The position numbers were made by a program, and so were the translations under genes. A DNA stretch of 35,761 nt from Paludibacteraceae bacterium (GTDB taxonomy: Bacteria; Bacteroidota; Bacteroidia; Bacteroidales; Paludibacteraceae). This document shows positions 4,573 through 19,165 of the stretch, in pieces; within the stretch, counting starts at the first letter, position 1, and each line of letters starts with the position of its first letter. The stretch spans positions 1 to 35,761 of the forward strand of contig JAGBZD010000066.1 in assembly GCA_017628395.1 (NCBI GenBank). The letters are read 5' to 3'. The notes under the pieces were generated by a model that worked only from the letters and a program-made list of their open reading frames with translations, made no database searches and was not told the DNA's origin.

Positions 4573-4603
4573 TTGCAAATCTCATAGAATTATTGTACCT
4601 TTG
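4573..4603 (+). promoter_or_regulatory. Promoter upstream of the AT-rich peptide locus
   Basis: TTG at 4573-4575, a 20-bp spacer, then the -7 box TACCTTTG at 4596-4603. The next complete gene starts 275 bp downstream. In between lie a broken ORF start and a conserved hairpin. Confidence 0.7.
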
Positions 4604-4622
4604 CAGCGATTTTAAACTATAT

Positions 4623-4673
4623 ATGGTTATGCAATTGATAGGAAGATCTAAAGAAATTCAAAAATACCAATAG
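4623..4673 (+). pseudogene. Remnant start of an ATP-binding protein gene
   Basis: A 16-codon frame beginning 20 bp after the -7 box contains LIGRSKEIQKYQ and then a stop. This resembles the N-terminus of Bacteroidota ATP-binding proteins of the DUF234/DUF4143 kind, which begin with a GRxxEI signature just before the P-loop. No P-loop follows, so I read it as the stump of a gene replaced by the downstream island. The similarity is short and only suggestive. Confidence 0.35.
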
Positions 4674-4679
4674 GCAAGA

Positions 4680-4701
4680 CCTGCAAAGCCGTAAGAGCAG
4701 G
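4680..4701 (+). promoter_or_regulatory. Conserved leader hairpin, GC variant
   Basis: CCTGC at 4680-4684 pairs with GCAGG at 4697-4701 around the loop AAAGCCGTAAGA. Copies at 11832-11853 and 14997-15018 have CCTAC/GTAGG and loop AAAGCTGTAAGA. The stem change is compensatory, which supports an RNA structure in the 5' leader. The flank GCAAGA before the stem is also conserved. Confidence 0.55.
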
Positions 4702-4878
4702 AGTAAAAACATGTAGTACGATAGGCGACAAGGCAGAAAAATTTAGAGAAGGTCAACACGGGGTAGAAGAGAAAATGTCTCTAACACCTCCTCCATACAC
4801 GGAGAGAGAAGAATGCCAAAGAACGAGATAACTAATGATTCAAACTTTTTTTAATTCCGCTAACGGTTAGAATTACTT
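4702..4878. other. Leader without a recognised gene
   Basis: Between the hairpin and the PP-loop gene only very short frames of 13-18 codons exist, none with a convincing signal. A 12-bp direct repeat TTAATTCCGCTA ends at 4862, matching 4553-4564. Confidence 0.4.
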
Positions 4879-5799
4879 ATGGGTGAATGTGTAACGATAG
4901 ATCAACTTGTAAACATAGAGCAATGTGAAATTTGTTGTACGCCAGTGGGGTATCCTAATGTCATATTTTACAGGAATAATGGACGAACACTTTGTGCAAA
5001 TTGTTATAAGATGATAAAAGAAGAAAAAATAGATCGAGAATATGAAAAAAATAATTTTCTAAAATTATTAGACTCGATTAAGAATACTGATAAAAGATAT
5101 CATGCTATTTTTGCTTATTCTGGAGGTAAAGATAGTACGGTTGCACTATACTCAGCAATAAAAGACTTTGGTCTGAAATTACTTGTATTTAACTTTGATA
5201 ATGGATTCAAAGGAGAACGCGTCATTAATAATATAAATAATGTGATTAGAGACCTCAATGTAGATTTCTATCAGATTAAGTCTCAAACAAGATATACAAT
5301 CATTCAAGATATCAACAATTCTATCTTTCCATGTGGGAGGTGCTCCTCATTAAAGACTCTATATCCGATGTTGACTAAAATGTTTGATGTAAAGTATGTA
5401 ATTACGGGCATTGAATGTGTTTACAATAATGAAGTCATTCGAAATAGAGGCACATTCTATCAGATAAATTGGCCCGCAGTATTTAATTGGAGCAAGAATG
5501 ATATTGAAAGTCGAATTAAAAACATTCCTTGGGAAGACCCTAATTATGGACCATTTGATTCCGATTGTTTATGCCCTATAATTGCATTGAGAAAAATATA
5601 TGGTTCAAGTGTATCTCCGAATCTTGATCTGTACTATGGCAAAAAAGAACAGCATGTTGTGCCATATTATGCGAGGTTAGTAAGGTATGGTGCCATTTCA
5701 AAAGCAGACTTCTATAAAATCATATGCACAAATTTAATCGTAGATAATGAGTGCTTAAAAGAAGAATTTGAAAAAATAGCACGTGAAAATGGAAACTAA
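4879..5799 (+). CDS. PP-loop ATP pyrophosphatase, N-acetyl-sugar-amidotransferase-like
   Basis: 306 residues. The PP-loop AYSGGKDSTVALYSA (79-93) marks an enzyme that adenylates its substrate before a nitrogen or sulfur nucleophile attacks. FNFDNGF at 104-110 follows as in WbpG-type amidotransferases. The N-terminus holds a zinc-ribbon-like set (C16, C19, C20, C39, C42). Two more clusters, PCGRC (C152, C155) and DCLC (C230, C232), could bind an iron-sulfur cluster as in TtcA-type thiolases. First gene of an AT-rich operon; its end overlaps the amidohydrolase start. In this setting it may activate a peptide carbonyl or carboxylate, which is inference. A sugar amidotransferase remains possible, but no polysaccharide genes are nearby. 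Confidence 0.75.
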   Translation: MGECVTIDQLVNIEQCEICCTPVGYPNVIFYRNNGRTLCANCYKMIKEEKIDREYEKNNFLKLLDSIKNTDKRYHAIFAYSGGKDSTVALYSAIKDFGLKLLVFNFDNGFKGERVINNINNVIRDLNVDFYQIKSQTRYTIIQDINNSIFPCGRCSSLKTLYPMLTKMFDVKYVITGIECVYNNEVIRNRGTFYQINWPAVFNWSKNDIESRIKNIPWEDPNYGPFDSDCLCPIIALRKIYGSSVSPNLDLYYGKKEQHVVPYYARLVRYGAISKADFYKIICTNLIVDNECLKEEFEKIARENGN

Positions 5800-6733
5800 T
5801 TACAAAGAATACATTAAAGGAATATTAACGAATACTGCCCATATAATTGACACCCATACACATATAGGGGTTGCTATTGGCAAGTATGTTAAAGGCTTGG
5901 GCGGGTATTGTCAGTCTTTAGAGGAATTGAGACTGAAAATGTTATTGAATGAAGTAGATCTCTCATTTGTTTTTCCATTTCCCGAAATGGAAGGTAATTT
6001 TTTGTCGAATATTAAGCAAAATAATGGTCAAATATTTACGAGGGAAGATTTCGATTACCAACTCTCAAACCTTAATATGGTGAATGAAATAATTAATAAA
6101 CATTACAACATGTTTATTCCTTTTATGATTATCAATCCAAAAAACAACACTGATCATATAATCAACTTTTTCAAAAAAAATAACCAATATTTATTTGGAT
6201 TTAAAATACATACAAAATCAAACGACATCTCTCCCGAGGAGATAACCGATTGTAAATTTTTAGATTTCTGTAAAAGTAATAAGTTACCCATTATATTCCA
6301 CTCACGTGCGTGCGATGAAAGATATTCATATCATTCTATACTTAAATTTGCAAAAAAAAATCCCTCAATAAATGTTTGTGTAGCTCATGCTGCAGGTTTT
6401 GATAAGCATTTTTATAGTGAGATACAAAATTTTAATAATGTATATTTTGATGTCTCCCCGTTGTTGTATTTATGTAAGCATGCTAGTGACGGAAATAAAA
6501 ATATAATATCCAAGGAACCAGTTGATATTGACTTTGAGAATCCAAGAGAAGTTTTATATATGTTATATACTTTGGCTCCGCAGAAAATCTTGTGGGCTAC
6601 TGACGAACCGTGTGGGCGTAGCAATAGTCACACATATAAATTACAGGTTGATATAATAAAACAAATGAGTAAAAATGTGATAGCACAGATAAAAAAAAAT
6701 ACAATAAAATTCCTATATCATGAAGAAATTTAG
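5783..6733 (+). CDS. Amidohydrolase-superfamily metal-dependent hydrolase
   Basis: About 314-316 residues of the amidohydrolase (TIM-barrel) superfamily. The ordered metal motifs are present: HTHIG near residue 24, lysine in FGFKIH near 140, histidine in PIIFHSR near 173, histidine in VAHAAG near 200 and aspartate in WATDEP near 275. It would hydrolyse a C-N, C-O or C-C bond in a small molecule or peptide. The start may be the GTG at 5783 or the ATG at 5789; both lie inside the end of the PP-loop gene, indicating translational coupling. Its 3' end overlaps the radical SAM gene by 14 bp. The substrate is unknown. In a peptide locus it could process a modified side chain or a leader, an inference from position only. 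Confidence 0.75.
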   Translation: MKMETNYKEYIKGILTNTAHIIDTHTHIGVAIGKYVKGLGGYCQSLEELRLKMLLNEVDLSFVFPFPEMEGNFLSNIKQNNGQIFTREDFDYQLSNLNMVNEIINKHYNMFIPFMIINPKNNTDHIINFFKKNNQYLFGFKIHTKSNDISPEEITDCKFLDFCKSNKLPIIFHSRACDERYSYHSILKFAKKNPSINVCVAHAAGFDKHFYSEIQNFNNVYFDVSPLLYLCKHASDGNKNIISKEPVDIDFENPREVLYMLYTLAPQKILWATDEPCGRSNSHTYKLQVDIIKQMSKNVIAQIKKNTIKFLYHEEI

Positions 6734-7685
6734 AAAAATATACATAAATATAAATTCAATATGTAACTGCAAATGTGTAAATTGCATTCTGTCTGAGGAT
6801 TCTAGAAAAATGCATGATGAATTATCTATAGATGAAATCAACAATTTGGTTGACTCTATTCCTCAAATCACAGATAATCAACATTATAATATTGCTGAAG
6901 TTAGTGGGGGTGAACCAACTCTTCACAAGCATTTTATTGAAATTGTTAAGATTCTTCAGAGTGCTAAGACAAAAGGTCATTTACACAAGATTGCGCTATT
7001 GACAAATGGTTTAACAGCCTCAAACAAAGCATTTTGTAGTGATATTTCTCAGTACATTGATGATGTAGTTATAACGTTGTATGATACAAATCCTATTAAT
7101 CATGATTGGTTTACAAATGTATCAGGTTCTTTTGTTGATAAAATTGCTGCGATAGACAATTTTTTAGAATGCGGTGTTAATGTTCATATAAAATTGCTAG
7201 TAATAAGACCATCATATCAAAGGCTACCAGAAATAGCAGAATTTATAAATCAGAAGTGGGGAAACAAAGTTCATGTTGCAATAAACGGAACCCATTATAC
7301 GGGTGACGCTCACAGAAATAACGATGTGTTGTTTATTAAGAATCAAAATGCTAAGCCATATATAGAAAAAGCATTAGATATATTAATAATGAATAAAACT
7401 ATTGTTAGTGTATTCTTCCCTTTATGTATTCTTGATCCAATATACTGGCAGTACTCTCCCAGGGGATTTAAAGATGTTATAGATGCATCTCTATCAATAT
7501 CTCCTAAATATAAAATCGGGAAGGCCGATAGACTTCTTGACGAGTTTATTCATAGAAATGATGTATGTGAATCTTGTTTGTTGGTAGAAAGATGCAACTG
7601 GCCATGGAAGAGATATTGTGAAATTTTAGATGAGCAGGAGATTATCGAAGCGAAAAACAATATGTATAAAAATATAATAAATTGA
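6720..7685 (+). CDS. Radical SAM enzyme with C-terminal auxiliary-cluster cysteines
   Basis: 321 residues. The radical SAM motif Cx3Cx2C is C15, C19, C22 in CNCKCVNC, followed by SGGEPT at 62-67 for SAM binding and LLTNG at 93-97. A cysteine set near the C-terminus (C283, C286, C292, C300; VCESCLLVERCNWPWKRYC) resembles a short SPASM-type auxiliary cluster, common in peptide-modifying enzymes. The start codon lies inside the amidohydrolase gene, and the gene ends 5 bp before a tiny Cys-containing ORF, the typical precursor position. It would make the 5'-deoxyadenosyl radical to modify that peptide, for example by a thioether or carbon-carbon link. The exact reaction is not deducible. Confidence 0.85.
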   Translation: MKKFRKIYININSICNCKCVNCILSEDSRKMHDELSIDEINNLVDSIPQITDNQHYNIAEVSGGEPTLHKHFIEIVKILQSAKTKGHLHKIALLTNGLTASNKAFCSDISQYIDDVVITLYDTNPINHDWFTNVSGSFVDKIAAIDNFLECGVNVHIKLLVIRPSYQRLPEIAEFINQKWGNKVHVAINGTHYTGDAHRNNDVLFIKNQNAKPYIEKALDILIMNKTIVSVFFPLCILDPIYWQYSPRGFKDVIDASLSISPKYKIGKADRLLDEFIHRNDVCESCLLVERCNWPWKRYCEILDEQEIIEAKNNMYKNIIN

Positions 7686-7690
7686 GAATC

Positions 7691-7840
7691 ATGGATAATT
7701 ACGAAACGAATTCAGAAAGAAAGGTGCAAATTATTTCTGGAAAAACTAATCAAACAGTTGAGTTTATTATTAACGATGAATGTTTGGCTAAAGAGAATTA
7801 TGAATGTATTGGATGTAGCAATTCTGACTACGGATCATGA
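7691..7840 (+). CDS. Candidate RiPP precursor peptide (49 aa)
   Basis: A 49-residue ORF starts 5 bp after the radical SAM gene and is followed 13 bp later by a strong hairpin, so it is the last gene of the operon. The N-terminal 30 residues are polar and charged (leader-like, with VEFIINDECLAKENY). The C-terminus YECIGCSNSDYGS concentrates two cysteines and small polar residues, like a modifiable core. There is no GG cleavage motif and no similarity I recognise to a known precursor family. A weak Shine-Dalgarno is normal for Bacteroidota. Reading it as substrate of the adjoining enzymes rests on position, size and composition. Confidence 0.6.
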   Translation: MDNYETNSERKVQIISGKTNQTVEFIINDECLAKENYECIGCSNSDYGS

Positions 7841-7853
7841 TGCTAATTAGCAT

Positions 7854-7904
7854 AAATCAAGAGGATGACACATTTCATTATGTCTTTTGTTATTCTCTTG
7901 ATTT
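7854..7904 (+). terminator. Operon-end hairpin after the precursor gene
   Basis: AAATCAAGAG at 7854-7863 pairs perfectly with CTCTTGATTT at 7895-7904, and a smaller GACA/TGTC stem sits inside. It follows the precursor stop by 13 bp, so a transcript end here is likely, although no long T run follows. Confidence 0.65.
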
Positions 7905-7942
7905 ATCCATCTAATGCATAAACTTGTAATCTAGAAATATAA

Positions 7943-7974
7943 AGCATCCTCAGCAGATTATAATAGAGGATGCT
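7943..7974. repeat. Second hairpin downstream of the precursor
   Basis: AGCATCCTC at 7943-7951 pairs perfectly with GAGGATGCT at 7966-7974 around a 14-nt loop. It may be a terminator remnant belonging to the lost gene before the metG fragment. Confidence 0.5.
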
Positions 7975-8027
7975 CTATGCGTAGTTACTCACAAATTGAA
8001 TAAACTCTTATCAATACGTCTCACATA

Positions 8028-8285
8028 ATGTATGTTTGGTTTGATGCATTAACGAATTACATTTCATCACAAAGAGGTGCCGAGACGGATGATTTTAATA
8101 ATGTTTGGAAAAACACTATACATTTTATTAGGAAAGATCTACTTCGTTTTCATGCTGATATTGGCTGCTATGCTGTTAGCGTTAGATTTACCATTATGAA
8201 AGAGTGTCGTGGCGCATGGTTGATGAAATGTAGCAGACAAGAAAATATCCAACTCTTCTCAAAAAGAAACAAAATCATAGGTTAA
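8028..8285 (+). pseudogene. metG: Methionyl-tRNA synthetase fragment
   Basis: An 85-residue frame matches the middle of the MetRS catalytic domain. YVWFDALTNYISS is the family's WFDA region, HFIRKDLLRFHADI corresponds to the HFxGKDIxxFH block, and RGAWLMK to HGWLMK. The canonical Gly of that block is Arg, the WPA segment is scrambled, and the KMSKS loop is replaced by unrelated residues before the stop. N-terminal HIGH and C-terminal domains are absent. This is a decayed piece of a second metG, embedded in the peptide locus. The resident essential metG must lie elsewhere. Confidence 0.75.
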
Positions 8286-8368
8286 AATTATAGAAACATG
8301 TTCTAATTATTGCACCTAAGTTATATATGCAAAAGCATGTATGATGAGTATAAAACTTCGGGAATTAA

Positions 8369-9142
8369 ATGAGAGATAATATTTTATCATTATGTGAAAT
8401 GCCATATAAAGCGGTTCCCCTTTTTTTAAAACAAGAGGTGGAATCGTTGTATTTATATGATACTATTTATATTGGAAGTGAGTTTTGTTGGGAGAAATTG
8501 TATCCTAGTGGAGGCTGGAGTCAAATAATTGATTTATGTCATCAAATGCATAAAAAAGTATTTTTTGTCCTTCCAATCCTTTTAGAGCGGTTTAATGATT
8601 TTTTTAAAGTTATTGTTTGTGCTCTTGTGCAGCATGGTATAGACGGTTTTGTTGTTAATGATTATGGAACATTATGGTATATGGTCAATAATTATTCAAC
8701 ATTAGATATCGTTATTGGTCGATTGTTGTTAAAGTCAGCAAGAGATTATTTAAAGTCTAATGATGTCAATATACAGTGTCGTTTCCCGATGGAAATAATA
8801 AATATTGTTCATCGTTTTAATTGCGTTAGAATAGATGTTGATTATAATGTGTTGTCTTATGACATTAAAGAAACTATTGATATTGAAATAGGTGTGCACA
8901 GTACATGCTATATAACATCAACTACTCTTTGTGACTATATACTTTACAATCAGGATAAAGATGGTGTGATAGGAAGTAGGTGTGAATATAATTGTTATAA
9001 GGAATTTACTTTTCTTCCTAATAGTCCATTATTTAAGTTGGGTAATGCATTATTATTCTTGCAGCAAGCGGATTCTATTAAATACGCTGATAAGATTATT
9101 GTTGATATAATATGTAATAAGATTAAATCAGATATAATATGA
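8369..9142 (+). CDS. U32-family protein, UbiV-like
   Basis: 257 residues resembling UbiV, one half of the UbiU-UbiV [4Fe-4S] complex that hydroxylates ubiquinone precursors without oxygen. YIGSEFC (34-40) matches the UbiV segment holding its first cluster Cys, and C40, C180, C188 and the C-x3-C pair C205/C209 roughly reproduce the UbiV pattern. GFVVNDYGTLWYM at 93-105 is the U32 barrel strand. The stop overlaps the start of the UbiU-like gene (ATGA), so the two are translated together, as for ubiV-ubiU partners. Quinone synthesis genes are not nearby, so the substrate here may be different, perhaps the peptide. That last step is inference. Confidence 0.6.
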   Translation: MRDNILSLCEMPYKAVPLFLKQEVESLYLYDTIYIGSEFCWEKLYPSGGWSQIIDLCHQMHKKVFFVLPILLERFNDFFKVIVCALVQHGIDGFVVNDYGTLWYMVNNYSTLDIVIGRLLLKSARDYLKSNDVNIQCRFPMEIINIVHRFNCVRIDVDYNVLSYDIKETIDIEIGVHSTCYITSTTLCDYILYNQDKDGVIGSRCEYNCYKEFTFLPNSPLFKLGNALLFLQQADSIKYADKIIVDIICNKIKSDII

Positions 9143-10038
9143 AAATAATGGTTCCATTAAACCCTTATTACTCGGTATCCGAGTTAGTGCAAGCAGGAGC
9201 TGATGGTTTTTATCTAGGCTTCATTCCGAATCATTGGTTGAGGGCATTTCAAAATGGTAATTTTATCAATAGAAGAGGGCATAATTTTTCTGTCAATTTT
9301 ACTGAAAACACAATCATTAATGCTTTAGAGTTGTGCCATGAATATGGTGTTCCTGCTTATTGTACATTTAATAATCATCAGTATACTCAGTGCGAATTAG
9401 AACACATTAAGCGCGCTATCAATTTTTTAGCGGAATACAATATTCATGGTATAATAGCATCAGATATCAATGTTTTAGAATATTGCAAAACGATTCATAT
9501 GCCAACAACACTAAGTACATGTGCGACTGTTTATAATAGATATTCCTGCGAATTTTATAAATTATTCGGCGTTAATCAAATAATACTCCCTAGAGATATT
9601 ACATTGTCTGAAATGGAAAATATTATAGCATGTGTTCCAGATGTAGAATGGGAAACTTTTATTTATCATTCACATTGTCGTTTTAGCGAAAGTGTATGTT
9701 TGTCCAATCATGGTTTATATGGTAATATATGTAAACGTTTCCGTAATTCTCCACAAATTTTGTGTAAAAATAAAGAGTATAAAAGAACAGTAGACTACTA
9801 TTACAACAAACCTCTTGGCTCATGTGGTTTGTGTGAAATTTATAAAATGAATCAAATAGGAGTTACGTGGTTAAAAATTGTTGAGCGAACTTTGCCTAAT
9901 ATTGTAATAAAGGAAACATGCAAAAAAGTTAAATATGCTATTGATTTGATGAATTCTGTAGACTCTGAATCTGCATTCCAACGAAATATTCAATCTAAAG
10001 AAATGTGTGTAAGAGGTAATAACTGTTATTACAAATAA
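9139..10038 (+). CDS. U32-family protein, UbiU-like
   Basis: 299 residues of the U32 'peptidase' family. SELVQAGADGFYLGF at 14-28 is the opening of the TIM barrel, PRDITLSEMENI (151-162) matches the family's RELSLEEI, and a Cys set follows: C180-x6-C187 (as in UbiU), C198, C209, then CGLC (C229, C232). This suggests a [4Fe-4S] cluster. Family members include UbiU and the RNA hydroxylases RlhA and TrhP; true protease activity is poorly supported for them. Its start overlaps the UbiV-like stop by 4 bp, implying a heterodimer. A role in O2-independent hydroxylation within this locus is my inference; a peptidase role cannot be excluded. Confidence 0.7.
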   Translation: MKIMVPLNPYYSVSELVQAGADGFYLGFIPNHWLRAFQNGNFINRRGHNFSVNFTENTIINALELCHEYGVPAYCTFNNHQYTQCELEHIKRAINFLAEYNIHGIIASDINVLEYCKTIHMPTTLSTCATVYNRYSCEFYKLFGVNQIILPRDITLSEMENIIACVPDVEWETFIYHSHCRFSESVCLSNHGLYGNICKRFRNSPQILCKNKEYKRTVDYYYNKPLGSCGLCEIYKMNQIGVTWLKIVERTLPNIVIKETCKKVKYAIDLMNSVDSESAFQRNIQSKEMCVRGNNCYYK

Positions 10039-10099
10039 CAATAACTGAAAATAAACAAGATTTATATGATTTATTTGAAATACTGAAACTGTTGTTACA

Positions 10100-10957
10100 A
10101 TGGATTTAAACAAAAGTAATGTTGAAAGGATTGGGAATATACCTATTTGTATAGAAGAGTATGAAATGCTTTTATATGAGAACATTCGAGAACAATTAAC
10201 AAGTGATAATAAAATACTACACCATTTGACTCGGTCAGCAAATGAACATGTTATTAATAAACTGAATTTGTTTTATCATGACTCACGGTTTACAAAAATT
10301 ATAATACTAGCAGGTAGGGTGTATTGTGAAGAATGTTGGGATACAAGAAAAGATTTCTTTTTTGAGATGAAAAAACGAAATAATCATTCTAAACGATACT
10401 GGGATTCAGTGAAATGTTCTTACAATAAGGTTGCTCAAATTCCAGTATGGTACATCTATGAGTCAATCGGTATGGGGGAACATGGCCTTATAGTTAAAAA
10501 TACAGATAATAAGGTAGAAAAAATATGGTATTCAAATTTATCAAATGTTGAGTGTGTTTTTTATACTTACTTAAAAACGAATTATATGACTATTTTTCCA
10601 CGAGTTTATTATGTTTCAACTGATAGAGTAATCATGGAGAAACTTAAAGTCGGTCTAATGAGTACTCATGAATTGTTGCCTTATATTACTTATATTGATA
10701 AATTTGTTAAAGTAAGGAATGATTTATTTGGTTTTAGGGAAAAGTATGTAGATTGGGATGAACTCTCTCAGTATCTGGGGGAATATCATTGGTTCTACCA
10801 ATACTTGAAAGAGATTGAAAAGGGATTAAATACTATATTGGGGGTAATGTCAATTGGTGACTTATCAAGTAGCAATATTGGTTTTAGGAGCGATGGAGAT
10901 GTAGTCTATTTTGACCCTATTTATAAGGCTTTAGAATATAATATGGGAGTTTTATAA
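10100..10957 (+). CDS. Protein-kinase-fold phosphotransferase-like protein
   Basis: 285 residues. The C-terminal segment GDLSSSNIGFRSDGDVVYFD (253-272) matches the kinase-fold catalytic loop and metal site: D254 for the catalytic Asp, N259 for the metal Asn and D272 for the DFG Asp (here FDP). A beta-hairpin near 127-145 (HGLIVKNTDNKVEKIWYSN) could be the N-lobe with a nucleotide-binding lysine. The first 120 residues are unassigned. It follows the UbiU-like gene by 61 bp and is the last AT-rich gene of the island. It could phosphorylate the peptide, a small molecule or act in self-protection; none of these is shown by the sequence. Confidence 0.55.
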   Translation: MDLNKSNVERIGNIPICIEEYEMLLYENIREQLTSDNKILHHLTRSANEHVINKLNLFYHDSRFTKIIILAGRVYCEECWDTRKDFFFEMKKRNNHSKRYWDSVKCSYNKVAQIPVWYIYESIGMGEHGLIVKNTDNKVEKIWYSNLSNVECVFYTYLKTNYMTIFPRVYYVSTDRVIMEKLKVGLMSTHELLPYITYIDKFVKVRNDLFGFREKYVDWDELSQYLGEYHWFYQYLKEIEKGLNTILGVMSIGDLSSSNIGFRSDGDVVYFDPIYKALEYNMGVL

Positions 10958-11003: not shown

Positions 11004-11590
11004 ATGTTATCTCCAAATTTTGATACATCTGAGTCTGAAATACCACTGAATGCTCTCACACCAGATTTCCCTCATTTATCCAATCGCCTTGCCTATTTGC
11101 TTCAACATTCCAATTTGCCAGACAAATATGGCTGGGTGTCAGTTGATGTACTATGTAAAGAATCTGGCTATAAAGAACATATCATCCGAACACTTGTCCT
11201 ATTTGATGACAAGGGGCGATTTATATTCTCAGACGACCAGATGAAGGTACGCGCTTTATATGGACATTCTATCAAGATAGAGAGTGATGCTGTACCCATG
11301 CAACCACCTGCCGTGCTATATCATGGAACGGCAGTGAAAAGTCTTGCTTCCATTTTGAAGAAGGTATAAAACCGATGAGTCGTGCTAAAGTTCATTTATC
11401 TCCAACTTATGGCATGGCTTACTTCGTAGGAGGACGCCATGGCATGCCAGTCGTCCTTGAAATCAATACTGCCGCGATGGCATCAGATGGATATGTTTTC
11501 TACAAAATCACCAACGATGTTTGGCAAACAGATTACATACCCCAAAAATATATAAAGGGGATAGCTGATTTGCCCTATGCAGCAAAATAA
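11004..11590 (+). pseudogene. kptA: RNA 2'-phosphotransferase (KptA/Tpt1) homologue, frameshifted
   Basis: Two adjacent frames together match the intact copy at 13045-13632. The first ends ...SLASILKKV-stop; the second resumes with KPMSRAKVHLSP. Comparison with copy 2 (CATTTTTAAAG) indicates a lost T in the run near 11353-11356. The NAD-binding motif YHGT and the GHS motif are intact in the first part, unlike copy 2. KptA transfers an RNA 2'-phosphate to NAD. Just upstream, 10974-10988 reads GAAATGAAATAA, which matches the tail (NEMK-stop) of the gene preceding copy 2. This copy is thus the right part of a duplicated gene pair cut by the AT-rich island. A base-calling error in the T run is an alternative. 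Confidence 0.75.
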
Positions 11591-11752
11591 TCGAAATCAT
11601 AATCCAATCCTATTGAATCCCCATAGATCTCCTTTGTGGGTCACTTAATGCATAGGAAAACCTATACTGAACTGCACTAATCTAAAATCTTTTTCATAAA
11701 AAAAACTGCACTAATCGCAAAAATTGGCGAATTAGGGCATTATAACACATTA

Positions 11753-11799
11753 TGCAAGGTTGCAAAGGTTGTATATATAATATATATACAGTACCTTTG
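11753..11799 (+). promoter_or_regulatory. Promoter with TGCAAGGTTGCA palindrome, copy 1
   Basis: The perfect palindrome-with-spacer TGCAAGGTTGCA at 11753-11764 lies just upstream of TTG (11769-11771). A 20-bp spacer and TACCTTTG (11792-11799) follow. The same arrangement recurs at 13789 and 14918, so the palindrome is a candidate operator next to the -33 element. Confidence 0.7.
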
Positions 11800-11831
11800 C
11801 AGCAAATTTCAAAATACTTGAAAAAGCAAGA

Positions 11832-11853
11832 CCTACAAAGCTGTAAGAGTAGG
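11832..11853 (+). promoter_or_regulatory. Conserved leader hairpin, copy in unit 1
   Basis: CCTAC/GTAGG stem with loop AAAGCTGTAAGA, 18 bp before the small CxxC gene. It covaries with the copy at 4680-4701. Confidence 0.55.
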
Positions 11854-11870
11854 GATAAAATCTAAGTCTT

Positions 11871-11990
11871 ATGGAAATGAGTAAATGCAAAAATTGTGAC
11901 AAGCCCACACCAAAGCCAATTCTCGAGAAATTTAATGGATTATGTATTACCTGTGAAACGATGCGCAATAAGCACATCAAATTCTTTTAA
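11871..11990 (+). CDS. Tiny CxxC...CxxC zinc-ribbon-like protein, copy 1 (39 aa)
   Basis: The 39-residue product contains KCKNCDKPTP and GLCITCETMR, two CxxC pairs 18 residues apart, as in a single zinc ribbon. It is strongly basic at the end (MRNKHIKFF). A second copy at 15036-15155 encodes the identical protein even though four bases differ, all at synonymous third positions (CCA/CCG, TTA/TTG, ATT/ATC, ACC/ACA). That is good evidence that the frame is translated and under selection. It sits behind the palindrome promoter and conserved hairpin, 57 bp ahead of a second small gene. Function unknown; a nucleic-acid or protein-binding adaptor is possible. Confidence 0.8.
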   Translation: MEMSKCKNCDKPTPKPILEKFNGLCITCETMRNKHIKFF

Positions 11991-12022
11991 TTTAACAACA
12001 AAACCTTAAAACCGACGGGCCG

Positions 12023-12040
12023 ATGGGGTATAACAGGCAA
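12023..12040 (+). promoter_or_regulatory. Conserved leader motif ATGGGRTATAACAGGCAA, copy 1
   Basis: The 18-mer occurs at 12023, 13888 and 15188, each time just before a small gene's start (ATG 24-25 bp later). As codons it begins MGYNRQ. At 12023 and 15188 this frame is out of phase with the gene, so it is an overlapping upstream ORF or an untranslated signal. Confidence 0.5.
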
Positions 12041-12047
12041 AACCACT

Positions 12048-12206
12048 ATGAAAGTAGAAGAGTATGAGGACAAGACCACGTTTATCGCAGATTCGGGTTA
12101 TTCCATCAAAGTTGAAACAGTTCATCGTAGTGATTGTTCTAGTGATTCGGACTATCATTGGCAATGTGACCGCGCTCGTGAACGTGCAGAAGAGCATGAG
12201 AAGTAG
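12048..12206 (+). CDS. Small acidic hypothetical protein, copy 1 (52 aa)
   Basis: A 52-residue product starting MKVEEYEDKTTFIADSGY and ending RARERAEEHEK, with a polar middle containing two cysteines (SDCSSDSDYHWQC). The copy at 15213-15371 differs at three bases: two synonymous and one giving Asp to Glu, which supports translation. It lies in the same transcript as the CxxC protein, after the conserved ATGGGRTATAACAGGCAA motif. No family recognised. The charged C-terminal helix could bind a partner. Confidence 0.7.
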   Translation: MKVEEYEDKTTFIADSGYSIKVETVHRSDCSSDSDYHWQCDRARERAEEHEK

Positions 12207-12215
12207 AAAAATGCT

Positions 12216-14508: not shown

Positions 14509-14910
14509 ATGATTATTACAGATCTTACTATTATTGACCGTCTCGCAGAAGAGGCGTATGCAAACCATCCAATCTTTTCTGTTGATCTGGCGGACTATGC
14601 AAACCTTAAACGTGCTTCAGATTACATCAAGGCTGTTAAGTTAGAGACTCCTTCGCTAACACAAGAATGTTTCGACAAACTTTCTCAACTAATACAAGAG
14701 ATGGGTACAGATGGTATGGACGAAGTTATTTTGCATATCACTTGCAACGGCAACTATTCTGATGATGTTACGACAAAGGGCATTATTGAGTTATTGGTGC
14801 AGATACATAATATCAATCCTAATGCTTGTTTAATGCATGGTGTTAGTAGCAAAGATAGTGATGAAAGCGGTTATGCAATTCTCCTGCTTGTAGGCTACAC
14901 ACAGAAATAA
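14509..14910 (+). CDS. Small protein resembling the FtsZ/tubulin C-terminal domain
   Basis: 133 residues. Residues 70-131 follow the pattern of the FtsZ C-terminal (GTPase-activating) domain: MDEVILHITCNGNYSDDV for the A-x-G-x-L-x-N-I-T-G-G strand, then a helix, then NPNACLMHGVSSKDSDESG for DANIIFGxxxDxxLGDE, then YAILLLVGY for VTVIATGF. The GTP-binding N-terminal domain is absent, and residues 1-60 are an unrelated helical part. It could be a stand-alone domain of this fold with an independent role. The resemblance is by eye, without a search. The preceding 165 bp contain no clear promoter. Confidence 0.5.
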   Translation: MIITDLTIIDRLAEEAYANHPIFSVDLADYANLKRASDYIKAVKLETPSLTQECFDKLSQLIQEMGTDGMDEVILHITCNGNYSDDVTTKGIIELLVQIHNINPNACLMHGVSSKDSDESGYAILLLVGYTQK

Positions 14911-14917
14911 TACATTA

Positions 14918-14964
14918 TGCAAGGTTGCAAAGATTGTATATATGGTATATAAGCAGTACCTTTG
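14918..14964 (+). promoter_or_regulatory. Promoter with TGCAAGGTTGCA palindrome, copy 3
   Basis: Palindrome 14918-14929, TTG 14934-14936, TACCTTTG 14957-14964. Confidence 0.7.
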
Positions 14965-14996
14965 CAGCAAATTTCAAAATACTTGAAAAAGCAAGA

Positions 14997-15018
14997 CCTA
15001 CAAAGCTGTAAGAGTAGG
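14997..15018 (+). promoter_or_regulatory. Conserved leader hairpin, copy in unit 2
   Basis: Same CCTAC/GTAGG stem and AAAGCTGTAAGA loop as in unit 1. Confidence 0.55.
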
Positions 15019-15035
15019 GGTAAAATCTAAGTGTT

Positions 15036-15155
15036 ATGGAAATGAGTAAATGCAAAAATTGTGACAAGCCCACACCGAAGCCAATTCTCGAGAAATTTAA
15101 TGGATTGTGTATCACATGTGAAACGATGCGCAATAAGCACATCAAATTCTTTTAA
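15036..15155 (+). CDS. Tiny CxxC...CxxC zinc-ribbon-like protein, copy 2 (39 aa)
   Basis: Encodes exactly the same 39 residues as 11871-11990 despite four base differences, all synonymous. Two CxxC pairs suggest a zinc ribbon. Same promoter, hairpin and downstream partner gene as copy 1, so both copies appear functional. Function unknown. Confidence 0.8.
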   Translation: MEMSKCKNCDKPTPKPILEKFNGLCITCETMRNKHIKFF

Positions 15156-15187
15156 TTTAACAACAAAACCTTAAAACCGACGAGCCA

Positions 15188-15205
15188 ATGGGATATAACA
15201 GGCAA
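15188..15205 (+). promoter_or_regulatory. Conserved leader motif ATGGGRTATAACAGGCAA, copy 3
   Basis: Third copy of the 18-mer, 25 bp before the ATG at 15213 and out of frame with it. Confidence 0.5.
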
Positions 15206-15212
15206 AACCACT

Positions 15213-15371
15213 ATGAAAGTAGAAGAGTATGAGGACAAGACCACATTTATCGCAGATTCGGGTTATTCCATCAAAGTTGAAACAGTTCATCGTAGCGAAT
15301 GTTCTAGTGATTCGGACTATCATTGGCAATGTGACCGCGCTCGTGAACGTGCAGAAGAGCATGAGAAGTAG
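15213..15371 (+). CDS. Small acidic hypothetical protein, copy 2 (52 aa)
   Basis: Identical to the product of 12048-12206 except Asp to Glu in HRSECSSDSDYHW. Follows the CxxC gene by 57 bp. No family recognised. Confidence 0.7.
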   Translation: MKVEEYEDKTTFIADSGYSIKVETVHRSECSSDSDYHWQCDRARERAEEHEK

Positions 15372-15378
15372 AAAAGAT

Positions 15379-16532: not shown

Positions 16533-17693
16533 ATGGAAGCACATTTTTCTCGAATCTCATGTTGGATTTTTAATCGTCCAGTTCCCCCAATGCCTATAGA
16601 CGCTATCGTGTATTATGAGAGTAGTTGGGATATTCAAACAAATACCTATGTTAAGGAGAATTTACAGAAAATCAACGATGCGCTAAGCACCTATCCTAGT
16701 GGGTACTGTCGCTTCCAATTGTTCTATGTCCCTCAACCAACAATCCAAGAGTTTGGCACAGAGGAAGAGAGATTGCAGAATCTAGAACGCAAAGCTGCAT
16801 TATATCATGATGCAACGTCTCCTTTCGAGGGAACAATATCGTGTGCACTCATGCAAGACAAAGGTCATGAAGAATATACTAGCCAGAGAGTCATGACCTT
16901 TAATATAGAAGATTGTACAGAGCAAGCCATAATCACCGCTATTCGCTATATGGCTGCGCTAGCGGATGATTTTAAAGATGAGGTACTAACCAGATCTGGT
17001 TCGATTCCTGCTAAATATCGTCAAATGTGGCAAGTGGATCTTGCTGTGGAGTGCAAAGAACTATATGATTCCGTAGATGACTGGCTCTCTGGAAAATATG
17101 AAATGTGTTTTACCCAACCGATACTTAAATTTGACGATGCTACCCATCGTTTGTGGTTCGTCAAAAATAATGGAGAATTAGATGAAGAATTCATTGTCAA
17201 ACAGCATGACTTATTAGCGCAAGCGTTCTATATCCTGATGTGGAATCACCCCGAAGGAATTAAAGACTCTGACCTGTACTACAATGAGGAAGAGAATAAT
17301 GAAGCAAAAAAAATACGAGTTGATGCTTTAAAAAAGGAGTTTGTGGAGTATTATAAAATTATGAGTCCAGACTCGTACAGAGATTCCAATGAAAGGATGC
17401 TTATACATTATCAAAAACAGATAAATTATTTTTGCGATAAAGAAAATCGTAACGAACGAAGCATTGCTCGTTCGCGTATTAAAACTGCATTCATGGAGCA
17501 TGAGACAAAACGTGTGCACAAGTTGTTTGCTGAGAAAGTAACATCATACTATGCATTTACTGGAAAAGAAGGCATTATCAAAGCTGAAAACATCGACCCA
17601 GTAAACAATCCGAATTACAATCGAACTACAATTATTTTACCCGACGAGCTCAAAATAAATATCATAAAGCATAATGCAAATAAGCAATCTTAA
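16533..17693 (+). CDS. Unknown protein coupled to the radical SAM gene (386 aa)
   Basis: 386 residues, soluble, no signal peptide or membrane segment, and no motif I recognise. Residues 1-120 begin MEAHFSRISCWIFNRPVPPM and look alpha/beta. Residues 240-340 are charged and helical (EEENNEAKKIRVDALKKEF, ENRNERSIARSRIKTAF). Its 3' end overlaps the radical SAM gene by 20 bp, so the two are translationally coupled and probably act together. It might be a recognition or partner protein for the maturase; this is only positional. Confidence 0.65.
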   Translation: MEAHFSRISCWIFNRPVPPMPIDAIVYYESSWDIQTNTYVKENLQKINDALSTYPSGYCRFQLFYVPQPTIQEFGTEEERLQNLERKAALYHDATSPFEGTISCALMQDKGHEEYTSQRVMTFNIEDCTEQAIITAIRYMAALADDFKDEVLTRSGSIPAKYRQMWQVDLAVECKELYDSVDDWLSGKYEMCFTQPILKFDDATHRLWFVKNNGELDEEFIVKQHDLLAQAFYILMWNHPEGIKDSDLYYNEEENNEAKKIRVDALKKEFVEYYKIMSPDSYRDSNERMLIHYQKQINYFCDKENRNERSIARSRIKTAFMEHETKRVHKLFAEKVTSYYAFTGKEGIIKAENIDPVNNPNYNRTTIILPDELKINIIKHNANKQS

Positions 17694-18993
17694 CATATCT
17701 ATAACAGGGTACAAATTATCGTATTACAACTTTTTCCTAACATACGAATCGGGAGAATCTGTTATCTTCAACTCACTCTATCGCTCTCTGCTGGCTTTTA
17801 ATCCAGAAGAGACATACAACCTGCATCTCGGACAAATCTCCGAAGTCTGCAAAAACGAGTTGATTGACAATCATATCCTAATACCTAATGATTGGGATGA
17901 ATTGACTTGCTACGAAGAAGCGTTTACTAATGCCAACAACCACTCCGAGGTACTTTCCTTGGCAATAATGCCAACTCTTGCTTGCAATTGTGCATGTCCA
18001 TATTGCTTTGAACGAAAAACATCTGCAAAAATGGATCAGCAAACCGAGCAAGATATTTTGGATTGGATAGTACAGCAATTACCTGCATACAAGGTGCTAT
18101 CAGTGGATTGGTTTGGAGGAGAACCATTGTTACATAAAGATATTATTCAGCGCATGTCCCAACAACTCATCTCCAAATGCAAAGAATTTGGGGTCATATA
18201 TACGGGAGCTATTACTACCAATGGGGTACTCATGAATAATCAAAAGGTTATTGACATGTTTAAAGATTGTCAAATTAATAATGTGCAAATTACGTTTGAT
18301 GGTGGACAATCTGCTCATGATGCGCAAAAGTTTTTGAATAACGGTAGAGGCACATACCTACAACTACTAAAAAATGCAAAATTATTCTCTGAATCCAACC
18401 CTAATTTGAAATTACGAGTTAGAGTAAATGTGTCCGATGCAAATTACCATACAATTGATGCTCTATTACACGATTTAGAACCTTTTAAAAATAATATTGT
18501 TATTTTCTTTAGATGGGTATACGCTAATGGAGCAAGTAATTGGACAAACTATTCAGAACGAGAGAAAGGCAATAATCCCTATAAAGGCATCTATCTACTT
18601 CAAAAATCAGCACTTGAGAAGGGGTTTGCTGTCGATGATCAATATGACAAACCTCAACTGCGCTTCTCACATTGCGAAGCCGATTCTCAAGGATTTTACA
18701 CCATTGATCCCCTTGGAAACCTTTATGTATGTGTACATGAATACGATGCCAAATATGCAGTTGGAAATGTTAAACAAGGTGTCTTAGAAGACAAACTAGA
18801 AGATTATATTAATTTCCGTCAAACCAACGCATTTATAGACCAAGAGTGTCGGCAATGTAAACTTCTTCCCATGTGTAACGGAGGATGCAGACGTTATAGA
18901 ATCAATCACAAAAAACATTTGTGTATTGATGAAAAGCAAAGCATAGAATTGTATATTGACATGCTATATCAAAAGTCATTACTAAATCTATAA
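17674..18993 (+). CDS. Radical SAM/SPASM peptide maturase
   Basis: 439 residues. The N-terminal region, about 1-85, resembles the peptide-binding domain common in SPASM maturases (YYNFFLTYESGESVIFNSLY). The radical SAM cysteines are C104, C108, C111 in LACNCACPYC, with WFGGEP at 146-151 and TTNG near 181-184. The C-terminal SPASM set is complete: C334, C353 in LYVCVHEY, then C392, C395, C401, C405 in ECRQCKLLPMCNGGC and C417. SPASM enzymes carry two auxiliary [4Fe-4S] clusters and modify ribosomal peptides. A 43-residue Cys peptide gene follows 40 bp downstream and is the likely substrate. Confidence 0.9.
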   Translation: MQISNLNISITGYKLSYYNFFLTYESGESVIFNSLYRSLLAFNPEETYNLHLGQISEVCKNELIDNHILIPNDWDELTCYEEAFTNANNHSEVLSLAIMPTLACNCACPYCFERKTSAKMDQQTEQDILDWIVQQLPAYKVLSVDWFGGEPLLHKDIIQRMSQQLISKCKEFGVIYTGAITTNGVLMNNQKVIDMFKDCQINNVQITFDGGQSAHDAQKFLNNGRGTYLQLLKNAKLFSESNPNLKLRVRVNVSDANYHTIDALLHDLEPFKNNIVIFFRWVYANGASNWTNYSEREKGNNPYKGIYLLQKSALEKGFAVDDQYDKPQLRFSHCEADSQGFYTIDPLGNLYVCVHEYDAKYAVGNVKQGVLEDKLEDYINFRQTNAFIDQECRQCKLLPMCNGGCRRYRINHKKHLCIDEKQSIELYIDMLYQKSLLNL

Positions 18994-19033: not shown

Positions 19034-19165
19034 ATGCAAACATTAAGAAAGTCGAACTTGCAAATTTTGACAGCAAACCACAAAGTGGCTTTTATGTCAA
19101 ATCCAGATTGGTCGTCCAACTCTGTTGTTAATAATCGCTATGTATGCGCTTGTTCTGCAGAATGA
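19034..19165 (+). CDS. Candidate RiPP precursor peptide (43 aa)
   Basis: A 43-residue ORF lies between the radical SAM/SPASM gene (40 bp upstream) and a strong terminator (20 bp downstream). The N-terminus MQTLRKSNLQILTANHKVAF is amphipathic and leader-like; the C-terminus NNRYVCACSAE has two cysteines spaced by one residue. No known precursor family recognised. Size, position, the adjacent SPASM enzyme and the Cys-ended tail match the peptide at 7691 in architecture. There is no sequence similarity beyond the clustered cysteines. Confidence 0.65.
   Translation: MQTLRKSNLQILTANHKVAFMSNPDWSSNSVVNNRYVCACSAE

Follow-up and report, generated by a model that had tools for sequence, protein, structure and literature searches.

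Gene content of the island

Contig JAGBZD010000066.1 of a Paludibacteraceae bacterium (Bacteroidales; assembly GCA_017628395.1), whose 35,761 nucleotides are referred to here as the window, carries an AT-rich island (~30% GC) with seven open reading frames (ORFs), all on the + strand. GC is 0.29–0.33 in segments spanning about 4.5–11 kb and 0.35–0.50 in the remainder of the contig, in line with the AT-rich plus-strand island described in the original prediction, which was made from the DNA letters alone. In order, the genes encode a PP-loop ATPase, an amidohydrolase, a radical S-adenosylmethionine (rSAM) enzyme, a 49-residue cysteine-containing peptide, a UbiV-like and a UbiU-like member of the U32 group, and an unclassified protein. 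The first two overlap by 11 bp and the second and third by 14 bp, and the ATG of the peptide ORF, at 7691, lies 5 bp past the rSAM stop codon, an arrangement that had been proposed before and with which the ORF coordinates agree; the UbiV-like and UbiU-like genes overlap by 4 bp.

We interpret the island as an anaerobic natural-product cluster gained by horizontal transfer, most likely one for a ribosomally synthesised and post-translationally modified peptide (RiPP), in which the U32 pair would be an O2-independent tailoring enzyme of the hydroxylase type, and we give this interpretation an even chance of being right. The gene order, the family assignments (several of them below curated cutoffs), the rarity in the sampled order and the recurrence of the rSAM, short ORF and U32 pair in an uncultured Clostridia contig (locus L043) are established here; the substrate and all of the catalytic steps are inferred.

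The HxsC-like radical SAM enzyme and the candidate precursor peptide

The rSAM enzyme (6720–7685) matches PF04055 with an E value of 1.3e-12, and its best NCBIfam family is TIGR03977 (HxsC), at 121.6 bits under a curated cutoff of 267.9. Its CxxxCxxC motif is invariant in a four-row family alignment (A1), as are C236, C283, C286 and C292, which bears out the earlier description of an rSAM enzyme with auxiliary cysteines. When the family profile was compared with the PDB (22 chains), SkfB, a peptide maturase, came first (4e-13), cytosylglucuronate decarboxylase followed (3e-10) and YydG was fourth (2e-7); the single sequence matched 7wzv only. A possible role in defence was rejected, as PADLOC, run on eight proteins, yielded only viperin-like rSAM similarity, at best 36.9 bits.

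The candidate precursor peptide (49 amino acids, 7691–7840) has cysteines at positions 31, 39 and 42 and ends in CIGCSNSDYGS. An ATG-initiated ORF of at least 49 amino acids starting no more than 50 bp from the rSAM stop arose in 111 of 5000 dinucleotide shuffles, which is suggestive only; allowing it at any point of the 683-bp gap raised the count to 986 of 5000. Searches of family libraries in the correct frame gave no match to the peptide. Its N-terminal part shows a visible but weak resemblance to Hxs-like leaders (RKVQIISGKTNQ versus DRVQVFSEKLGA). As in the Hxs (His-Xaa-Ser) systems, an HxsC-type rSAM stands beside a short ORF; unlike those systems, the island has no recognised HxsB, its peptide lacks a His-Xaa-Ser motif, and PP-loop, amidohydrolase and U32 genes are added. 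A further rSAM, at 17674, lies 10 kb from the first, and ranthipeptide-type maturases are its closest relatives. We infer that the 49-mer is the substrate of the island enzymes.

Several observations count against the RiPP interpretation or weaken this assignment. A tblastn search with the peptide against 174 loci of other genomes returned nothing below E 1.1, and a leader hidden Markov model (HMM) ranked it 109 among 12277 ORFs. When it was compared with the peptides of G103, L033, L043 and L038, 64, 766, 107 and 80 of 3685 null ORFs, respectively, scored equally well, as did 98, 722, 116 and 51 of 1000 shuffles. No HxsB partner, transporter or protease was recognised in the island by Pfam and NCBIfam scans, and some of the PDB chains related to the rSAM, cytosylglucuronate decarboxylase among them, are non-peptide enzymes. 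These relatives, together with a shuffle frequency that makes a 49-residue ORF near the rSAM stop not very improbable, would suit an alternative in which the product of the island is a small molecule (amino-acid, sugar or carrier-protein-bound), the ORF being due to chance or regulatory; the PP-loop protein and amidohydrolase would then act as amide or amidine enzymes, with the rSAM and the U32 pair tailoring the product. We consider this alternative unlikely, if still a serious contender, for HxsC, of a peptide system, is the NCBIfam family that the rSAM matches best, its best PDB chain is SkfB, and a short ORF, itself unproven, directly follows the rSAM in L043 too.

The PP-loop protein and the amidohydrolase

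The PP-loop ATPase (4879–5799) resembles WbuX and other N-acetyl sugar amidotransferases (TIGR03573, E 2.8e-24), scoring 86.2 bits under a cutoff of 203.2 over residues 14–184, the N-terminal half. SGGKDS lies at residue 81, and cysteines occur at 16/19/39/42, as an N-terminal CxxC...CxxC element, and at 152/155, in keeping with the extra cysteine pairs ascribed to this protein in the original prediction. The N-terminal Cys-pair element and the PP-loop motif are shared with WbuX/WbpG-type amidotransferases, but the island protein matches only the N-terminal half of that family and no glutaminase partner was recognised in the NCBIfam scan. The assignment of its best family to N-acetyl sugar amidotransferases would be expected if the island made a small molecule; on the other hand, Pfam and NCBIfam scans of the island picked out neither a carrier protein nor an adenylation domain nor a sugar gene.

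The amidohydrolase (ATG 5789 to 6733) matches family 2 (Amidohydro_2, PF04909) with an E value of 2e-5 and 24.9 bits, just under the gathering cutoff of 26.4, and carries HTH, FHS, AHA and TDE motifs, which we take to be the metal site; the match and the motifs together uphold its earlier identification. In the bottromycin-type system, a YcaO protein and an amidohydrolase form an amidine, and there too an ATP-using amide activator is encoded beside an amidohydrolase; here a PP-loop protein stands in the place of YcaO, and the comparison is an analogy only. The pair suggests amide activation, in which either nitrogen or sulfur may be added.

The UbiV-like/UbiU-like pair

The UbiU-like protein (9139–10038) belongs clearly to the U32 group (PF01136, 2e-27), and its family aligns with E. 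coli UbiU at an hhalign E value of 3.7e-19, although it scores 80.8 bits against the NF047963 equivalog, below the cutoff of 440. In the family alignment (A4), C180, C187 and C232 are invariant and C198 is present in seven of eight rows. Compared with the published cluster ligands of UbiU (C169/C176/C193/C232), only the first spacing is identical, C180/C187 being spaced as C169/C176 are.

The UbiV-like protein (8369–9142) has no match in Pfam or NCBIfam. When its family of eight was aligned with E. coli UbiV plus five plasmid-borne homologues, hhalign returned E 3.1e-5 (73%), with C40 placed on UbiV C39; control alignments of the same family gave 0.086 against the rSAM and 0.0033 against the UbiU family, and the comparison with the single E. 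coli UbiV gave 0.28. HMM searches were weak both ways: the UbiV-like HMM placed two true UbiV proteins at 12.8 and 11.9 bits, against 7.6 for the best of 400 decoys, and the UbiV HMM gave the protein of the window 3.2 bits, the level of decoys. Its cysteines, C40...C188-x16-C205-x3-C209, agree in arrangement with the published UbiV motif CXnCX12CX3C, but with x16 where UbiV has x12. Of the U32 pair named in the original prediction, the UbiU half is clear and the UbiV half tentative, seen in family-level alignment and only weakly by HMMER.

In common with the UbiU-UbiV complex of anaerobic ubiquinone biosynthesis, the two proteins are an adjacent pair with similar four-cysteine patterns. They differ from it in that the UbiV-like gene precedes the UbiU-like gene, the reverse of the E. 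coli order, and in that no SCP2/UbiT match was found among the scanned neighbours, the context being instead an rSAM and a short ORF. Relatives of PP-loop, U32 and rSAM proteins all include RNA-modifying enzymes, as would be expected under another alternative, a role of the island in RNA or translation-related modification. This would be very unlikely in our view, as the pair is of the UbiU/UbiV type and the rSAM resembles HxsC and SkfB. A 2024 review describes the biochemically characterised U32 oxidases as participants in ubiquinone synthesis and in the modification of RNA bases (PMC11574389). UbiU and UbiV hydroxylate without O2 (PMC10470549, PMC6747719); their substrates are ubiquinone precursors, and the oxygen comes from another donor (PMC10470549). 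The U32 proteins TrhP and RlhA hydroxylate RNA (PMC10470549), which is a further point for an RNA-related role.

Organisation of the island

A strong hairpin on the + strand (7852–7906), terminator-like or mRNA-stabilising, starts 11 bp beyond the stop codon of the peptide ORF. The region 7838–7925 folds with a minimum free energy of -26.9 kcal/mol (z -5.63), and an equal stability was reached in none of 200 shuffles; the hairpin is not listed in a terminator scan that requires a T-run. It is followed at 8028–8285 (+ strand) by a decayed fragment of a methionyl-tRNA-synthetase (MetRS) gene (PF09334, E 3.9e-9), a pseudogene remnant; another part of the genome holds a separate MetRS-like frame of 702 aa, to which the remnant is 47% identical over 45 residues. 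By eye, the similarity of the remnant seems to continue in another frame, an apparent frameshift. Because the hairpin and the remnant separate its halves, the island probably forms two transcription units, and because both come after the peptide ORF, that ORF likely closes the first unit. The original prediction of a contiguous locus, which mentions neither feature, stands as regards gene order, but the single-operon picture is weakened.

The hairpin and the remnant also suggest that the halves may differ in history, which counts against a single pathway. Taken further, the PP-loop/amidohydrolase/rSAM/peptide genes and the U32 pair with the last gene could be two unrelated sets lying side by side, joined by an event that left the MetRS piece. 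The contig of L043 fits this in having a U32 pair and an rSAM with no relative of the PP-loop protein or amidohydrolase. We find such a juxtaposition improbable, since the two halves are alike in strand, GC and codon-position GC, and since the rSAM and U32 pair occur together in L043. The MetRS remnant could likewise be taken to point to translation-related modification, but it is a decayed fragment.

The last island gene (10100–10957) encodes an unclassified protein with GDLSSSN at residue 253 and DP at 272, near the C-terminus, both of them kinase-like motifs. It had been called a kinase-fold protein; these two motifs fit that label, but the protein matched nothing in Pfam, NCBIfam or PADLOC, and its best PDB hit has an E value of 0.68. 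It also had no tblastn match in the 174 loci of other genomes, which were not sampled by a dedicated search for it.

Distribution and recurrence in other genomes

At E 1e-20, the rSAM was found in three of 393 genomes of the order, its own included, and by eye the other two look Hxs-type in gene order. Among the best 80 of 371 confirmed loci of the genome collection, its closest near-full-length relative is 28% identical and short partial matches reach 35% at most; a first scan of genome contigs with the single sequence found none. None of the 197 other genomes sampled from the order has the UbiU clade at E 1e-40. PP-loop relatives occur in nine of 395 genomes of the phylum (own included) and in four of 391 of the class of L043, at 25–36% identity outside the island's own genome. 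The enzyme set named in the original prediction is thus borne out, with key parts that are rare in the sampled order. In plasmid records, 412 entries matched the rSAM, all below 60% identity (16 of the 20 matches listed are annotated hxsC), six matched the UbiU-like protein distantly, and none matched the UbiV-like protein, the PP-loop protein or the amidohydrolase. Scans of viral contigs with alignment A1, UbiU, alignment A4 and the PP-loop protein found no relative.

L043 alone among 93 compared loci of other genomes also encodes U32 relatives (UbiU-like, E 1e-26; UbiV-like, E 1e-6). It is a 7.7 kb contig of an uncultured Clostridia metagenome-assembled genome (isolate Lapin-023), of a different phylum from the window, and encodes in order a 96-aa ORF, an rSAM/SPASM protein (best NCBIfam families DynA at 136 bits and HxsB at 123 bits, both below cutoff), an HxsC-like rSAM, a short ORF, an FkbM methyltransferase, a UbiV-like protein in two pieces and a UbiU-like protein. 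Relative to the window, the HxsC-like rSAM is 24% identical (E 6e-19; TIGR03977, 118 bits), the UbiV-like protein 31% over 130 aa (E 2e-10) and the UbiU-like protein 32%. The presence of the rSAM, a short ORF and the U32 pair together in L043 argues that the island halves belong together.

A U32 search of the 391 genomes of the class of L043 retrieved 28 genomes at E 1e-20, which match span and frame length divided into six of UbiU type (that of L043 and five others) and 22 of TrhP type. Among the five others, L149 has UbiU, a UbiV-like protein, a PapB-like rSAM, a NodU-like protein and a B12-type rSAM; L150 has UbiV-like, UbiU, rSAM/SPASM, Dph6-like PP-loop, B12-rSAM and AsnB-like genes and, by eye, two ABC-transporter-like and two carrier-protein-like ORFs; and L153 has an AMP-ligase and a protein matching the B12-rSAM of L150. 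The rSAM, UbiU and UbiV-like genes also occur together in L154, in a Verrucomicrobia genome reached through L037. Within the family of the L043 genome, the UbiU clade is present in two of 148 genomes, its own included, the other being G1234.

To count neighbouring rSAM genes, we used 12 rSAM proteins as queries, some of them taken from UbiU-type loci. An rSAM was found within 1.5 kb in three of eight UbiU-type loci and none of 29 TrhP-type loci (the 22 of the class search plus seven others, assigned to this type by their span and frame length). Extending the distance to 4 kb gave six of eight, or five of eight with each locus's own proteins removed, versus none of 20 TrhP-type loci (20 of the 22, two of them shortened by contig ends).

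Several points limit these results or count against the RiPP interpretation. As the query panel came partly from UbiU-type loci, detection favours them and other kinds of rSAM near the controls could be missed; moreover, the window and L043 were found via their rSAM, and the L154 genome was reached via another rSAM. Of the five loci retrieved with UbiU only, two have an rSAM within 4 kb (three counting the self-hit of L153), and the comparison of two of five with none of 20 (Fisher's exact test by hand, about 0.03) is suggestive in a small sample. L151 and L152 had no rSAM match. A contig end truncates the UbiU-type locus of G1234 (L162), which was left out of the counts, and no link was found between the U32 contig of G1234 and an rSAM contig. 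L150 looks carrier-protein-based, so a U32 pair is no proof of a peptide substrate; with its AsnB-like enzyme and PP-loop protein, this relative is what a small-molecule product would lead one to expect. The L043 contig has no PP-loop, amidohydrolase or kinase-like relatives, and the PP-loop/amidohydrolase/rSAM set was not met again in the 93, later 174, loci of other genomes, where the PP-loop protein matched only loci retrieved with it and the amidohydrolase, for which no dedicated genome-set search was made, matched nothing. Of the co-occurrence that was to be looked for around the rSAM, therefore, the rSAM, short ORF and U32 pair were found again, in L043, but the PP-loop/amidohydrolase/rSAM set was not.

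The leader and the flanking regions

Upstream of the PP-loop gene, positions 4573–4708 (+ strand) hold a promoter-like sequence (TTG...TACCTTTGC) and a 5' leader. The TACCTTTGC element, at 4596, coincides with the start given for the locus in the original prediction, and the sequence is like that of a Bacteroidales-type promoter. The leader contains a 28-nt motif with three copies in the window, each on the + strand (4674–4701, 11826–11853 and 14991–15018); its 24-nt core, with up to three mismatches, has three sites in the genome assembly (81% complete), identical to those three. A possible 5-bp stem reads CCTGC/GCAGG at 4674–4701 and CCTAC/GTAGG in the other two copies, a single compensatory change. 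Apart from this short stem, a strongly structured RNA in the leader was unsupported (z -0.74), and an Rfam search had no match at gathering thresholds.

Two identical 39-aa CxxC...CxxC ORFs (11871–11990 and 15036–15155) lie behind copies of the leader motif. They are similar to the Cys-pair element at the N-terminus of the PP-loop protein, with 10 of 2000 shuffles and four of 4051 null ORFs scoring equally well. A 469-bp duplication (11742–12210 and 14907–15375) has 96% identity, and KptA-like ORFs are present at 11004 (broken) and 13045; the flank of the island is a duplicated accessory array. A 52-aa ORF at 12048 was not supported as a second copy of the peptide (614 of 2000 shuffles and 294 of 3460 null ORFs equally good). 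The two KptA-like genes downstream, the first on the same strand and 46 bp past the last island gene, might seem to speak for a role in RNA modification, but they lie in duplicated DNA of higher GC and the first is broken into two ORFs.

Further along the contig, the second rSAM (17674–18993) is closest to maturases of ranthipeptides and Cys-rich peptides (TIGR04463, 211 of 525 bits) and is followed after 40 bp by a 43-aa ORF (19034–19165) that ends in CACSAE; together they are possibly a second peptide cluster.

A proposed pathway and its significance

If the island is a RiPP cluster, the HxsC-like rSAM would bind the 49-aa peptide via its N-terminal leader and modify the C-terminal half, which is rich in Cys. 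Adenylation of an amide or carboxylate would fall to the WbuX-like PP-loop protein, leading to amidine, amide or thio-acid chemistry, and the amidohydrolase would complete or hydrolyse the resulting product. The UbiU/UbiV-like [4Fe-4S] pair would install hydroxyls without O2, most simply on the product of the rSAM, and the last protein may phosphorylate or serve as an accessory. A wider proposal, which we hold tentatively and with more doubt than confidence, is that UbiU/UbiV-like pairs are recurrent O2-independent hydroxylases in anaerobic natural-product pathways, rSAM-modified peptides included, and that the PP-loop protein and amidohydrolase of the island remodel a peptide amide, which would make this a class of RiPP with a new tailoring chemistry.

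Among open-access full texts, most subscription journals being outside that scope, no paper connected U32 proteins with rSAM RiPP biosynthesis; the only word match, in the protein table and a reference of an Enterococcus proteomics study (PMC9503237), is incidental and unrelated. A word search of the text available from a survey of Bacteroidales RiPPs (PMC10352776) did not find U32, PP-loop, amidohydrolase or HxsC. The logic of an rSAM with a short ORF is already known, and the remainder is a proposal. Anaerobes need O2-independent hydroxylation. If the proposal is true, a U32 pair repeatedly beside an rSAM would bring peptides or other natural products within the scope of U32 chemistry, and the U32–rSAM adjacency is a concrete co-occurrence handle for mining the genomes of anaerobes.

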